Both the position numbers and the translations under genes were made by a program. The notes below the pieces were generated by a model. The model was not told where the DNA came from, searched no databases, and was given only the letters and a program-made list of their open reading frames with translations. Shown in pieces: positions 5,551-58,955 of a stretch of 64,000 bases of DNA (position 1 is the first letter of the stretch; every line of letters starts with the position of its first letter). This DNA is from Spirochaetales bacterium (lineage in GTDB: Bacteria > Spirochaetota > Spirochaetia > Treponematales > Treponemataceae): positions 434,001 through 498,000 of the forward strand of contig QKEL01000009.1 of NCBI GenBank assembly GCA_003252395.1. Direction: 5' to 3'.

Positions 5551-5780
5551 GAGTCGGCGTAGTTTCAAGGGATTTACCGACAAGCCGACGGTGAGTCGGC
5601 GTAGTTTCAAGGGATTTACCGACAAGCCGACGGTGAGTCGGCGTAGTTTCAAGGGATTTACCGACAAGCCGACGGTGAGTCGGCGTAGTTTCAAGGGATT
5701 TACCAACAAGCCGACGGTGAGTCGGCGTAGTTTCAAGGGATTTACCAACAAGCCGACGGTGAGTCGGTGTAGTTTCAAGG
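5551..5780 (+). repeat. 42-bp tandem repeat array between rimP and nusA
   Basis: Five full 42-base units (5551-5592, 5593-5634, 5635-5676, 5677-5718, 5719-5760) plus a 20-base partial sixth (5761-5780). Each unit begins GAGTCGGCGTAGTTTCAAGG. Units 1-3 are identical; units 4-5 share one G-to-A change (ACCGACA to ACCAACA). The partial copy has one C-to-T change and then diverges. Each unit junction makes a perfect hairpin, GCCGAC - GGTGA - GTCGGC (first at 5584-5600); the fifth ends in a G-T pair. Each unit also carries AAGGGA, and in the truncated last copy the same place reads AAGGAG, the nusA ribosome-binding site. The period is a multiple of three, so frames stay open through the array. Confidence 0.95.
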
Positions 5781-5782
5781 AG
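5777..5782 (+). promoter_or_regulatory. nusA ribosome-binding site within the last repeat copy
   Basis: AAGGAG, 6 bases before the nusA ATG at 5789. It occupies the position held by AAGGGA in the five full repeat units, so repeat expansion has placed SD-like copies every 42 bases upstream of the real one. Confidence 0.85.
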
Positions 5783-5788
5783 TCTTGA

Positions 5789-7252
5789 ATGTCCGCAGAA
5801 ATGGCAGAAGCGATACGCCAACTAGTTCAGGAAAAAGGCATTGACGAGGATCTCGTATTCAGGATGATTGAGGATACCCTCAAGGCCGCATATAAGAGAA
5901 AATACGGGATGAACGACAACGCGGTCGTTTCCTTTAACGCCGAGCATACCGACGTTTCCATATATTCCAGAAAGACTATCGTGGACGGCGTTTATAACCC
6001 GGTGGTGGAAATAGAGTTGGAAGAGGCGCTCGAGCTTGATCCTGAATGCGAAGTAGGCGATGAACTCCTAATCGAGGTAGACCCCCGTGAGTTTGACCGC
6101 ATTTCCGTCCAGTCGGCGAAACAGACCGCGCATCAATCCATTCGAGACATACAGAAAGACAGCCTGTATTCCGAATACAAGGATAAGGTGGGCGAGATCA
6201 TCATCGGTTATTACCAGCGCGAGCGAAACGGCAATATCTACGTCGACCTGGGCAAGGTTGAGGGAATTTTCCCCAAGAAATTCCAGTCGCCCCGCGAGAC
6301 CTATCGCCAAAACGACCGCATTAAGGCGATGATCTCGGAAGTCCGAAAAACGCAAACCGGCCTCCAAATCGTCCTTTCCCGGACGGATCCCGATTTCGTG
6401 AGGCGCATCCTGGAACTTGAGGTTCCCGAGATTTACGACCGGACCGTGGAAATCCATAAGATCGTCAGGGAACCCGGATACCGTACCAAGGTGGCCGTTT
6501 CTTCGCATCGCGAGGACGTTGACCCCGTTGGCGCCTGCGTGGGCCTTAAGGGCGTACGCATTCAGGCCGTAATACGGGAGTTGGAGGGCGAAAAGATCGA
6601 TATCCTCAAATTTGATCCCGATCCCCGCGTCTTTATCCGAAACGCGCTGTCCCCTGCCGAGGTTAACGATGTCGTGATCCTCGATGAGGTGAAACGAACT
6701 GCCCTTGCCGTCGTTTCGGACCAGCAGTTCTCGCTTGCGATCGGCAAGCAGGGCCTGAACGTGCGCCTCGCCAACCGGCTTGCGGACTGGAGCATCGACG
6801 TAAAAACCGAGGAACAGTTCGCGGAGCTGGACCTTACGGCCGAGTCGCGCAAGGCCGTCGAGAACCTCTTTAGCGACGAGCCTCCCGTGGAGGAGATATC
6901 CGACGTCGCCGAGTTGCCCGGCGTATCCGAAGAGCTTGTCTCCGTGCTCCGCAACAACGGAATTGATAAAATAGAAAGCCTGCTTTCGATGGATAACGCT
7001 GCCATCGAAGCCCTTGACGGCATGAACGGCGAACTATCGACCGCCCTTGAGGGAATTATCAAGGAAAACCTCGAAGTCGTGGAGGACGCGCCCGATACGG
7101 AAGCGGTTCTCGCGGCGGAACAGGGAGCGGTGGAAGATACTGATTCCGAAGAATATGAATGTCCCGAATGCGGGGCTTCAATTACGATCGATATGACAAC
7201 GTGTCCCAATTGTGGTATTGGTCTCAGCTTTGAATATGAGGACGAAGAATAG
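5789..7252 (+). CDS. nusA: Transcription termination/antitermination factor NusA with C-terminal zinc ribbon
   Basis: 487 residues. Order: N-terminal RNA-polymerase-binding domain (1-~125), S1 domain (~130-200, GNIYVDLGKVEGIFP), KH1 and KH2 (~205-345, including VGACVGLKGVRIQAV and AIGKQGLNVRLA), then a helix-hairpin-helix-like segment (~370-430, DVAELPGVSEELVSVL). The unusual part is the end: CPEC at 458-461 and CPNC at 472-475, a four-cysteine zinc ribbon that E. coli NusA lacks. NusA binds RNA polymerase and nascent RNA and controls pausing and termination. Start fixed by AAGGAG 6 bases upstream. It sits between the repeat array and infB, 8 bases before the latter. Confidence 0.96.
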   Translation: MSAEMAEAIRQLVQEKGIDEDLVFRMIEDTLKAAYKRKYGMNDNAVVSFNAEHTDVSIYSRKTIVDGVYNPVVEIELEEALELDPECEVGDELLIEVDPREFDRISVQSAKQTAHQSIRDIQKDSLYSEYKDKVGEIIIGYYQRERNGNIYVDLGKVEGIFPKKFQSPRETYRQNDRIKAMISEVRKTQTGLQIVLSRTDPDFVRRILELEVPEIYDRTVEIHKIVREPGYRTKVAVSSHREDVDPVGACVGLKGVRIQAVIRELEGEKIDILKFDPDPRVFIRNALSPAEVNDVVILDEVKRTALAVVSDQQFSLAIGKQGLNVRLANRLADWSIDVKTEEQFAELDLTAESRKAVENLFSDEPPVEEISDVAELPGVSEELVSVLRNNGIDKIESLLSMDNAAIEALDGMNGELSTALEGIIKENLEVVEDAPDTEAVLAAEQGAVEDTDSEEYECPECGASITIDMTTCPNCGIGLSFEYEDEE

Positions 7253-7260
7253 GATACTGT

Positions 7261-10062
7261 ATGGCCGAAGATCTTGAGAATACGCAGAAACCGAAGGTAA
7301 TTCTGAATAAACAGAAAAAATCCGATCCCTCAATGGCTGACCAGTCCACTGCCGGCGCTTCGCAAGGCGAGAAGAAAAAGGTTGTCGTGGTGAAAAAGAA
7401 AACACCGACTTCCCATATTCCCGAGCCTCAGGAAGCACCGGTCAAGAGGACCGTTCACGTTATACCGGTGCATGGAAGCGACGCGGATAAACCCGCTGCC
7501 CCCGCGGCGGCGGAACCGGCTCCCAAGGCATCGGGAGAGAAAACCGAAGAGGTTTCGCGGGAACGCCGCAAGCCTCAATCGATAGAATTAAGCCCCCCTC
7601 GGCCCAACGTTAAGGTCGGCAATCTCGCCGACCGCGGGCGGCCTGGTCCCAGGACGGGCGGCAATTATAACGGACCTCCTCGCGGCGGTTACGGCAACCG
7701 TGATAATTTCTCGGGTACCCAGGCCCGCGAAGGCGCCGGTTCCCGCGGACCCGGCGGCTACCAGGGCGGTTCGTCCGGACCCGGCGGCTACCAGGGCGGA
7801 CCCGGGCGCGGACCCGGCGGCTACCAAGGCGGTTCCGGCGGCTACCAAGGCGGACCCGGCGGCTACCAAGGCGGACCCGGGCGCGGACCCGGCGGCTACC
7901 AAGGCGGACCCGGGCGCGGACCCGGCGGCTACCAAGGCGGACCCGGACGCGGACCCGGCGGCTACCAAGGCGGACCCGGACGCGGTCCCGGCGGCTACCA
8001 AGGCGGACCCGGACGCGGACCCGGCGGCTACCAAGGCGGTCCCGGGCGCGGACCCGGCGGCTACCAAGGCGGCCCCGGGCGCGGTCCCGGCGGTCCCGGC
8101 GGATCGCCGATGCCCCTCGCATCCGGGAAAGGTCCCGCCAAAAAGCAAACTTTCAAGGGTAAAAAGAGCTCGTCCTATCGGAAGGACAAGGAACTTGATT
8201 TTGAGGAAAAACTTCTTCAGCAAAAGAAGAAGGCTCAAGACAAGGCCAACGCGATTCCCAAGGAAGTCGAAATCATGGAAACCATATCGGTTTCCGAACT
8301 CGCGAGAAAGATGAACCTCAAGGCTTCCGAGCTCATCGGTAAGCTTATGGGTATGGGCATGATGGTGACCATGAATCAATCCATCGACGCCGATACCGCC
8401 ACGATACTCGCGTCTGAATACGACTGCACCGTCCATATCGTCAGCCTGTACGACGAAACCGTTATCGAAAGCGAAAGCGACGCCGGGGCCGAGCTCATGC
8501 ACCGTCCGCCCGTGGTTACGATCATGGGTCACGTTGACCATGGTAAGACCAAGACGCTCGACGCCATCAGAAGCGCCAACGTCGCCGGCGGAGAATTCGG
8601 GGGTATTACCCAGCATATCGGCGCCTACACCGTGGATACGCCGAAGGGAAAGATTACCTTCCTCGATACGCCCGGTCACGAGGCATTCACCATGATGCGC
8701 GCCCGCGGCGCCGAAATCACCGATATCGTGGTTCTCGTCGTGGCGGCAGACGACGGCGTCATGCCCCAAACCATCGAGGCGATCAATCACGCCAAAGACG
8801 CGAAGGTGCCCATCATCGTCGCGGTCAACAAGATCGATAAGCCCGAGGCGAATCCGGACCGTTTGAAGACCCAGCTCTCCGATTACGGGCTCATCCCCGA
8901 AGAGTGGGGCGGAGAAACCCAGTTCGTGCACATAAGCGCGTTGCAAAAGACCGGTTTGGACGAACTGCTCGACGCGATTCTCATCCAGGCCGAAGTGCTC
9001 GAGCTCACCGCCAATTACGATTGCCGCGCCGAGGGCAAGGTTATCGAATCGCGCATCGACCACGGTCGGGGTATCGTCGCGACCATTATCGTGGAACGCG
9101 GTACCCTGCGTACCGGGGATCCCTACGTCGCGGGCGTGTATTCCGGGCGGGTTAGGGCGATCTTTAGCGATCGGGGCGATAAACTCGAGGAAGCGACCCC
9201 GAGCATGCCCGTGGAAATCCTCGGTCTCGAGGGTATGCCCAATGCGGGCGATCCCTTCCAGGTTACCGAATCGGAACGGCATGCCCGTCAGATTTCCTCG
9301 AAGAGACTCGAGCTCAAGCGGTTCGAGAATTCGAGGAACGTTAAAAAGGTTACGCTGGACAATCTGTACGATACGATTCACGACGGCGAAGTCATGGAAC
9401 TCAAGGTCATCATCAAGGGTGACGTGCAGGGTTCCGTCGAAGCGCTCAAGTCCTCGCTGGAAAAGCTTTCCACCAAGGACGTCCGCCTGAACGTTATCCA
9501 CGCTTCCGCGGGAGCCATCAACGACTCGGACGTTATGCTCGCGGCCGCAGACTCCAACGCGATCATCATCGGCTTTAACGTGCGCCCCACCCCTCAGGCG
9601 AAGATCCTCGCCGACCAGGAAAAGGTGGATATCCGAAAGTACAACGTCATTTACAAGGCGGTCGAGGAAATCGAACTCGCCATGGAAGGGATGCTCAAGC
9701 CGGATATCAAGGAAGAGGTTATCGGTTCCGTCGAGGTTCGGGAGGCCATCAAGGTACCCAAGATCGGTACCATCGCCGGTTCTTACGTGCTTCAGGGAAT
9801 GATAAAGCGCAGCTCCACCGTGCACGTTATCCGCGAGGGTATCGTCGTGTACACCGGAAAGCTCGCCTCGCTCCGCCGGTTCAAGGACGACGTGAAGGAA
9901 GTGGCCGCCGGCTTCGAATGCGGTATCTCGGTAGAGAATTACAACGACGTGCGAGTCGGTGACCAGTTTGAGGTAATCGAGTTCGTAGAGGTCGCCCGCA
10001 AGCTGAAGGATAGCGAGAAGCTAAGTTCTGACAAGCCAAAGGCCGAGGGACAGAAGGAATAA
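7261..10062 (+). CDS. infB: Translation initiation factor IF-2 with Gly-rich repeat N-terminus
   Basis: 933 residues. After a charged start comes a low-complexity region at about 163-281 with eleven copies of YQGG, mostly in 11-residue units [11 protein letters not shown]. Then a lysine-rich linker, the short IF2_N helix domain (~345-395), and the GTPase domain: G1 GHVDHGKT (~423), G2 with GGITQHIG, G3 DTPGHEAF, G4 NKID. Domains II-IV follow. IF-2 brings initiator tRNA to the ribosome. The catalytic core looks intact; only the N-terminal repeat is unusual. It follows nusA by 8 bases and its stop touches the rbfA ATG. Confidence 0.97.
7750..8101 (+). repeat. 33-bp coding minisatellite inside infB
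   Basis: Near-identical 33-base units encode [11 protein letters not shown]. Eleven YQGG cores are present; the first four are irregular ([16 protein letters not shown]) and later ones regular. Codons alternate between CCAGGG (first two) and CCAAGG, and GGGCGC versus GGACGC, suggesting successive duplications. The run stays in frame throughout. Confidence 0.9.
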
Positions 10063-27029: not shown

Positions 27030-27671
27030 ATGACTCGAACGTATCTACTGGCCCCATCCATATTAAGCGCAGATTTTTCCGATCTTGGTTCGTCGCTTGA
27101 CGAAATTCGTCGCAAAGGCGGCGATTGGATCCATATCGACGTAATGGACGGGCACTTCGTTCCCAATTTGACCCTGGGACCGCCTATCATAAAGGCTCTA
27201 CGGAGAAAGTCCGACCTTCCCTTCGACGTTCATTTAATGGTGAACGACCCCGCCTCTATGGTCGACCAGTTTATCGACGCGGGCGCGGATTGGTTAACCT
27301 TTCACGTTGAGGCGGAGACCCATGCCCACCGTTTGGCGGCGAAAATTCGTGAATCGGGCATAAAGGCGGGCATCAGCATCGTCCCTTCCACTCCCGTATC
27401 GGCGATTATGGAACTATTGCCCTTCGTCGACCTTGTGTTGGTCATGACGGTCAATCCCGGTTTCGGCGGCCAAACCCTCATTCCGCGTTGCTTGCGAAAG
27501 GTCGCCGAGCTGAAAAAAATCAAGCATGATCTTGGTTTATCGTATATAGTATCAGTAGACGGAGGGGTAAACCGGGAAACTTTGGGCGCGGTGGTAGAGG
27601 CTGGAACCGACGTGGTAGTCTCGGGTTCGGCGTTTTTCTCGGGAACCCTGCTGCCGGATGGTGACGCTTAA
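27030..27671 (+). CDS. rpe: Ribulose-phosphate 3-epimerase
   Basis: 213 residues from the ATG at 27030, which gives the standard start (four residues, then LLAPSILSADF). Active-site and metal residues are present in HIDVMDGHFVPN, DVHLMV, MTVNPGFGGQ and VSVDGGVN. Rpe interconverts ribulose-5-P and xylulose-5-P in the pentose phosphate pathway. There is no SD upstream and the predicted promoter places transcription start at the ATG, so a leaderless message is likely. An ATG six bases earlier is an alternative. It heads a plus-strand set with three exported or membrane proteins. Confidence 0.95.
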   Translation: MTRTYLLAPSILSADFSDLGSSLDEIRRKGGDWIHIDVMDGHFVPNLTLGPPIIKALRRKSDLPFDVHLMVNDPASMVDQFIDAGADWLTFHVEAETHAHRLAAKIRESGIKAGISIVPSTPVSAIMELLPFVDLVLVMTVNPGFGGQTLIPRCLRKVAELKKIKHDLGLSYIVSVDGGVNRETLGAVVEAGTDVVVSGSAFFSGTLLPDGDA

Positions 27672-57398: not shown

Positions 57399-57443
57399 TG
57401 GTACGTCCCCTTACCTTTTTTATTTTCGCAGTTAATCGATGAT

Positions 57444-57472
57444 TTGACAAGACAATTCGTTTCTCGTATGCT
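57444..57472 (+). promoter_or_regulatory. Promoter of the Cas2-like gene
   Basis: Consensus TTGACA (57444-57449), 17-base spacer, TATGCT (57467-57472, 4 of 6). Start point would be about 57478, the A of the ATG. Confidence 0.65.
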
Positions 57473-57477
57473 AGGCT

Positions 57478-57774
57478 ATGTTTGTTTCCGTTATGCTGGA
57501 TCCAGGCGGGGAAGAATCGGCGCGGCTGCTTGCCGATACCCTCGCAACCTGGGGTTTCGACAAGGTACAGCGCGCGTGCTGGGAATCCGCCTCCGTCGCA
57601 GAATCCTCTCTCGTCCAGATTAAGCAGGAGATCGACCGCGTCACCGATTACTACGATACGGTGCGGCTCTATCAATTCCCGGTAGACGGCGTGTTAGCCA
57701 TAACCGTTCTCTCAAAGAAACGATGGAAACGCATTCTCGTGCGCCCACCGGCGGGCGGAAAGCCGAAACGATGA
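57478..57774 (+). CDS. Cas2-like small protein, not near any CRISPR
   Basis: 98 residues. The pattern follows the Cas2 ferredoxin-like fold: strand MFVSVMLD with Asp8 at the metal position, helix (~12-24), strand FDKVQRACWES (compare V-Q-x-S-V-F-E of Cas2), helix (~40-53), strand DTVRLYQF (compare S-V-R-I-Y), then a last strand pair to RILVRP. Cas2 pairs with Cas1 in spacer integration; other members are nucleases or VapD-like. No cas1, other cas gene or array lies in the window. Start at the ATG, with no SD but a good promoter, implies leaderless expression. It may be a domesticated nuclease. Homology is by eye. Confidence 0.6.
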   Translation: MFVSVMLDPGGEESARLLADTLATWGFDKVQRACWESASVAESSLVQIKQEIDRVTDYYDTVRLYQFPVDGVLAITVLSKKRWKRILVRPPAGGKPKR

Positions 57775-57823: not shown

Positions 57824-58955
57824 ATGATACTCGCAGAGTTCAAGACCCCTATCAACGAGGTGAAAAACCAGGTTGAGGAAATTTGGGGGCGTCTTTGACC
57901 CGGCCGCGATAAAGGCCAAAATTGCGGAGAAAGAGGATTTTTCCGCCTCTCCGGGCTTTTGGAACGACAGCAAAAAGGCCGAGAAAACCATGAGCGAACT
58001 ACGCTCGCTCAGGAGCCGCATAGATCCCTGGGAGGGACTCAGGGCGGAGATAGGCGACCTTGAGGCGCTTTTCGAGCTTGCCGAGGAATCGGGCGACGAA
58101 TCCATGGCGGCGGAGATCGAGTCAGCGTACAAGGCCATCGTCGAAAAATACGAGAAGCTGAACATTCTCAACCTGCTCTCCGATGAGGTCGACCGAAACG
58201 GCGCCTTTCTCGAGATTCACGCGGGCGCCGGCGGAACGGAAGCCTGCGATTGGGCCTCCATGCTTTCCCGCATGTACCTTCGCTGGGCGGAACGCCGCGG
58301 TTTCAAGGTAGAGACGGTGGACCTGCTTGAGGCCGACGGCGGCATTAAATCCGTGACCTACCAGATAACCGGCGATTACGCCTTCGGGTACCTGAAAAGC
58401 GAGTCGGGAGTCCATCGGCTGGTCCGGATTAGCCCGTTCGACGCGAACGCCCGTCGCCATACCTCCTTTACCTCCGTTCACGCGTTCCCGATCCTGGACG
58501 ACACCATCGAAGTGGACATTCGGCCCGAGGACCTTCGGGTCGATACGTATCGCTCAGGCGGGGCCGGGGGCCAGCACGTCAACAAGACCGACTCGGCGGT
58601 GCGTTTTACCCACCTTCCCACGGGAATTGTGGTTGCCTGCCAGAGCGAGCGAAGCCAGATCATGAATCGCCAGTTGGCGATGAACGTCTTGCGCGCGAGG
58701 CTCTACGAGTATTACAAAAACAAGAAAGAACAGGAAAACCAGAAATTCGCCGCCGAGAAGAAGGATATCTCCTGGGGCAACCAGATTAGGTCCTACGTAT
58801 TTCAGCCGTATACCATGGTCAAAGATCACCGCACGAAGCACGAAACCGGCAACATACAGGCGGTGATGGACGGAGATCTCGATCCCTTTATGGAATCCTG
58901 GCTGAATTCCAAGTGGAAGGGCCTTGACCTGGACAGCGGGGACGATGACCTATGA
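57824..58955 (+). CDS. prfB: Peptide chain release factor 2 (programmed +1 frameshift)
   Basis: Frame 0 starts at ATG 57824 (AAGGAG 6 bases upstream) and runs 24 codons to an in-frame TGA at 57896-57898. The stop context is GGGGGC GT CTTTGAC, the classic RF2 shift site: an SD-like GGGGG, slippery CTT, TGA, C. A +1 shift at CTT (skipping 57896) continues in the frame to 58955, giving ~376 residues. The GGQ motif (SGGAGGQHVNK) and RF2 tripeptide SPF (RISPFDAN) are present, so it reads UGA/UAA. Falling RF2 raises frameshifting, an autoregulatory loop. The stop overlaps the next gene. Confidence 0.96.

Follow-up and report, generated by a model that had tools for sequence, protein, structure and literature searches.

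Cas2 acts as a scaffold in the CRISPR integrase. Spacer acquisition does not depend on its catalysis (PMC6452270, PMC11980593), and the purpose of its own nuclease activity is an open question, since many Cas2 proteins possess it and CRISPR adaptation can do without it (PMC6452270). According to a published view, Cas2 was derived from VapD-like interferases (PMC6452270). Here we describe a stand-alone cas2-like gene in a window of 64,000 nucleotides from a Spirochaetales bacterium (contig QKEL01000009.1, positions 434,001 to 498,000), the window being the whole stretch of DNA that was analysed. The gene lies ahead of prfB, the gene for release factor 2, and is likely to have a role outside CRISPR.

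Assignment to the Cas2 superfamily

The assignment to Cas2 rests on family-level profiles, PADLOC models and the fold, and not on the window protein's own score. The PADLOC Cas2 model matches all 19 aligned family members (E up to 0.01), TIGR01573 matches 15 and PF09827 11 of them, and six orphan proteins of the order exceed the PF09827 cut-off. PADLOC Cas2_IIIa reaches the window protein at 3.3e-7, and the modelled monomer adopts a ferredoxin-like fold whose top fold matches are solved Cas2 chains. On these profiles and the model, the window gene is a member of the Cas2 superfamily, and for its product a homodimer of Cas2 type is predicted, with the two Asp8 residues facing each other. A profile and structure check had been proposed in the preliminary description of this DNA, and the result that would have spoken against the idea, no Cas2 or VapD match, did not arise: family profiles and fold lead to Cas2, while the window protein alone is a marginal match (NCBIfam 19 bits, cut-off 24.5) and has no match in a Pfam search. 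The Cas2-like order of elements claimed there for the 98-residue product is found in place, with strand 1 (residues 2-8) ending in D8, followed by VQRACWE (30-36) and VRLY (62-65).

With the window protein as query and a limit of E 1e-3, a protein search yields 293 relatives. Compared with the two nearest ones, dN is 0.085 and 0.084 against dS of 1.3 and 1.5, the latter near saturation, and dN/dS is about 0.06; judged by these substitution rates, the open reading frame (ORF) at 57478-57774 is a real gene under purifying selection and constrained as a protein. In an alignment of 265 rows (261 distinct), E36, D57, D60, Q66, P68 and W83 each occur in 264 of the 264 rows with a letter, R63 is found in 260 and Y65 in 255 rows, and the family has a signature of its own, D..D..R.YQ[FY]P...W. 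Residue 8 is acidic in 262/263 rows (Asp in 250, Glu in 12; Ala in the remaining one), residue 29, which takes the Arg place in the RVQ motif, is Lys or Arg in 255/265, and residue 35, at the Phe position of SVF, is aromatic in 263/265. Tyr7 is nearly always lost, as only 6/265 rows have Tyr there.

Independence from CRISPR

No match was obtained in a Cas1 search of the 3.41 Mb assembly (92.9% complete), nor in a Cas9 search of the same assembly, for which the control was weak because no control genome exceeded the cut-off; five cas3_core matches in the assembly all fall below the cut-off. The direct repeats of the 64-kb window, the region in which arrays were searched, include no CRISPR-like array. 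The earlier observation that the window holds neither cas1 nor an array stands, and a nearby cas1 and array, which had been named as grounds against a role outside CRISPR, did not turn up: no Cas1 was found close by or in the genome, and no array in the window.

The orphan gene is carried by 99 and Cas1 by 76 of the 194 genomes compared within the order, with 48 possessing both, 51 the orphan only, 28 Cas1 only and 67 neither (odds ratio 2.25, p 0.008, with kinship ignored and many assemblies incomplete). A tblastn search with 20 Cas1-region ORFs gave no Cas1-like match within the flanking DNA, up to 7 kb, of 120 orphan loci, which overlap in organisms and in which distant Cas1 types could escape such a search. 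Moreover, 37 orphan proteins are split from 28 CRISPR Cas2 proteins belonging to this order with a support of 100/99; this tree takes 28 of about 94 CRISPR Cas2 matches, has few columns and is unrooted, so that it speaks for separation and not for direction. A role outside CRISPR immunity, as suggested previously, is likely in view of the carriers without Cas1 and the split in the tree, and the gene is best regarded as an orphan relative of Cas2. The idea of a CRISPR remnant was rejected on the same two grounds, together with the lack of Cas1 in the genome and the Cas1-free flanks.

A conserved place ahead of prfB

The housekeeping setting beside prfB, and the synteny in related genomes that was to be checked, are both borne out by the 80 best of 107 relatives: prfB comes next on the same strand in 77 of these 80 loci (E up to 1e-4). 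Of the three exceptions, L019 stops at a contig edge and L011 and L068 have other neighbours. Where the contig is long enough, the recurrent order is largely ybeY, corC, TPR gene, divergent gene, cas2, prfB, ftsY, lolE. In the window 49 nt separate the cas2-like stop from the prfB ATG, and in the 70 measurable loci of the 76 taken the median is 25 nt, with a distance of at most 200 nt in 69/70. In all 70, prfB is preceded by a Shine-Dalgarno match of at least 4 and has its frameshift site after 22-25 codons, and CTTTGA is present in 71/77 related loci.

The gene is present in one copy in 98/99 carrier genomes, the remaining one (G073) having two partial pieces; the cultured species Brucepastera parasyntrophica is among the carriers. 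A search of 296 genomes of the phylum gave a match in 49: the order accounts for 39, the rest of the class for 3, which also adjoin prfB, and other classes for 7; 4 of these 10 matches outside the order come from genomes with Cas1, on other contigs. Relatives outside Spirochaetota were found neither among the taxon-named matches listed (best 120 of 293, best 120 of 549, and 106 of 106; most rows carry no taxon) nor among 80 titles from the search that gave the 107 relatives. Furthermore, 50,697 phage and 72,556 plasmid records contain no match at E 0.01.

A promoter at leaderless distance

The window promoter, TTGACA-17-TATGCT (57444-57472), leaves 5 nt between the -10 box and the ATG, and the claim of a consensus promoter of its own with a start on the ATG agrees with the predicted start at or next to that codon. 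With a criterion of at least 9/12 and a distance of 4-9 nt from the end of the -10 box to the ATG, 74/82 related upstream regions share such a promoter, against a mean of 1.55 and a maximum of 3 in 20 dinucleotide shuffles, and a Shine-Dalgarno match of at least 4 precedes cas2 in 4/82. With alignment-based starts, the leaderless-position promoter is found for cas2 in 75/80 loci, ftsY in 0/67 (1/67 if any start within 12 codons counts), lolE in 0/67, ybeY in 0/31, HDIG and corC in 0/2 each and the divergent gene in 2/8; the corresponding Shine-Dalgarno matches number 2 for cas2, 64 for ftsY, 55 for lolE, 25 for ybeY and 4 for the divergent gene. The failures (8/82) are of several kinds: the scored ATG lies 2-3 codons upstream of MFVS in L017, L071 and L072, the promoter lies about 10-12 nt before the ATG in L012 and L076 (by eye), a matching -10 box is lacking in L020, and L011 and L066 have Shine-Dalgarno-like sites.

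From these sequences a leaderless cas2-prfB transcript is predicted. Leaderless mRNAs are reported to be common in Leptospira (PMC5243855); for Treponema, a literature search with most subscription journals outside its coverage found no start-site map, and the available part of PMC5294841 does not mention the genus. Gene loss is inferred in the genomes without the cas2-like gene, and 17 of these 95 were examined for prfB (18 taken, minus G122, which had no prfB match). In 4/17 (L163, L165, L169 and L175, from two families) prfB itself sits on a promoter of at least 9/12 at leaderless distance, its ATG 6-7 nt past the -10 box. This points to a promoter that serves the prfB operon; L164 and L171 have an 8/12 promoter at that distance, and eleven have none. 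In L176 (G013, 1.1 Mb, same family) prfB has a Shine-Dalgarno-like site and the Cas2-like gene is missing, which may be a loss through genome reduction.

Two further observations concern promoters in the window. A promoter-like site of the divergent gene (57422-57450, minus strand; TTGTCA on the other strand) overlaps the cas2 -35 region, and an ORF at 27030-27671 (plus strand), which by eye resembles ribulose-phosphate 3-epimerase, has a leaderless-position promoter of 9/12. Elsewhere the window contains a glycine-rich, coding-like repeat (7729-8133) and, at 5551-5802, a 42-nt unit repeated in tandem about five to six times with no spacers.

Table 1. Features around the cas2-like gene (window coordinates)
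Feature	Position	Strand	Basis or remark
cas2-like ORF, 98 aa, stand-alone Cas2-superfamily protein	57478-57774	+	profile, fold, conserved residues
-35 hexamer TTGACA, conserved	57444-57449	+	
-10 hexamer TATGCT; predicted transcription start at or next to ATG 57478	57467-57472	+	
prfB (release factor 2), Shine-Dalgarno site, +1 frameshift; predicted second operon gene	57824-58955	+	
CTTTGAC, prfB +1 frameshift site, after 24 codons, preceded by GGGGG	57893-57899	+	
Divergent neighbour, 406 aa	56178-57398	-	relative upstream in many loci

Possible functions

The most likely reading, which we put forward tentatively, is a housekeeping RNA-cutting enzyme that forms a Cas2-type homodimer and is made together with release factor 2. 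Translation would begin with the cas2 ORF, on a leaderless transcript that offers it no Shine-Dalgarno site; prfB would be read next, with a Shine-Dalgarno site of its own and through the frameshift. RNA would be the substrate, and the target would lie in translation or mRNA turnover. Cutting is argued from the near-universal acidic residue 8, Lys or Arg at 29 and aromatic residue 35, which correspond to Asp8, Arg33 and Phe39 of LinCas2C via the RVQ and SVF motifs (PMC9510766). RNA is weakly favoured over DNA because Tyr7 is nearly always lost and a LinCas2C Tyr7-to-Ala mutant kept its RNase activity about unchanged, in a set of substitutions that compromised DNase (PMC9510766).

Several observations weigh against this RNase. 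An Asp change in LinCas2B removed the DNase activity and left RNase activity, and much RNase activity was retained by LinCas2C mutants and by Asp mutants in that study (PMC9510766), so that a kept Asp is by itself no argument for an RNase; these results and the rows with Glu at residue 8 (12/263, besides one with Ala) led us to mark the reading down. The SVF Ser is replaced (A in 138, N in 82 and S in 7 of 265 rows), the SsoCas2 Arg pair has no conserved counterpart at residues 15-17 (equivalence by position only), and the strictest residues, D57, Q66, P68 and W83, lie outside the classical Cas2 set and are compatible with a binding role too. L190, of the same class and outside the 82 regions, has no such promoter, and members from other classes have Shine-Dalgarno-like sites (both by eye). 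The gene is dispensable, since 95/194 genomes of the order have no match, and the 7 matches from other classes are not beside prfB, which is on another contig; the family therefore seems older than its site before prfB.

A dimer with the Cas2 fold but no catalysis, which would bind RNA or a protein partner and influence translation or the prfB operon, is also quite possible and was ranked closely behind the housekeeping RNase. It is in line with the lost Tyr7 and SVF Ser, with Glu at residue 8, and with the dispensability of Cas2 catalysis in spacer acquisition (PMC6452270, PMC11980593), and the invariant D57, Q66, P68 and W83, outside the classical set, may form a surface for RNA or a partner; a pure scaffold, however, has no obvious need for the acidic residue 8 of 262/263 rows. 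A housekeeping DNase of Cas2 type is improbable: Asp8 is present in 250/263 rows and Asp is required for the DNase activity of LinCas2B, but Tyr7, in the set needed for that of LinCas2C, is Tyr in only 6/265 (PMC9510766). A toxin of the VapD kind, whether by itself or paired with an antitoxin, is less probable still. Of the catalytic Asp and Ser of VapD, the Asp is kept in the window protein and a counterpart of the Ser was not located; no small antitoxin gene adjoins the ORF, whose neighbours are prfB and the 406-aa divergent ORF, and the toxin-like character once considered for it is not supported, given the single copy in 98/99 carriers, the missing small partner ORF, the fixed site and the lack of phage or plasmid matches at E 0.01. 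There is only a slight chance that the ORF is mainly a translated leader that tunes prfB, with the protein secondary, as its first place after a leaderless-position promoter and the short distance to prfB might suggest; the constraint is at the protein level, and the gene is kept without adjoining prfB in L068, L011 and other classes. That the protein serves CRISPR adaptation in trans, or is left over from a CRISPR locus since lost, is close to refuted, for although many members are labelled CRISPR-associated Cas2 in databases and 48/99 carriers have a Cas1 match, 51/99 have none, the flanks of 120 loci are free of Cas1, the proteins stand apart from 28 CRISPR Cas2 proteins in the tree and the site before prfB is fixed.

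Returning to the housekeeping RNase, a wider form of it, in which Spirochaetota possess a Cas2 that was never part of CRISPR, a translation RNase with a leaderless link to release factor 2 and an example of pre-CRISPR Cas2, appears unlikely; as far as sequences go, the window family is a candidate for a non-CRISPR branch of Cas2. We found no description of an orphan cas2 gene beside prfB in the literature covered, which excludes most subscription journals. A subfamily under strong selection at a fixed non-CRISPR site makes Cas2 nuclease activity testable on its own, and it offers a leaderless-position promoter that is widely conserved ahead of a translation gene. Many spirochaete entries labelled CRISPR-associated Cas2 belong to the window family, and these names are misleading.

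Comparison with known systems

The VapD ribonuclease toxins belong to the same superfamily as the window protein, and in both strand 1 ends with an Asp (PMC11980593). LinCas2C of Leptospira interrogans (7f84, PMC9510766) lies in a I-C cas locus without an array, whereas the window gene has no cas neighbours. CRISPR Cas2 (TIGR01573 / PF09827) and the window family share the ferredoxin-like fold, and D8, G26, E36, K49, D60, R63 and Y65 are common to the family and four CRISPR Cas2 proteins of the order. In contrast to CRISPR Cas2, the window family has no adjoining Cas1 or array, has lost Tyr7 and differs in its C-terminal part, and it possesses D57, YQ[FY]P and W83 of its own and a conserved site before prfB. 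Autoregulation of prfB by a +1 frameshift is known from E. coli, and the window prfB resembles it in having CTTTGAC after 24 codons with a G-rich stretch before it; it differs in that a Cas2-like gene stands ahead of prfB in the predicted operon.
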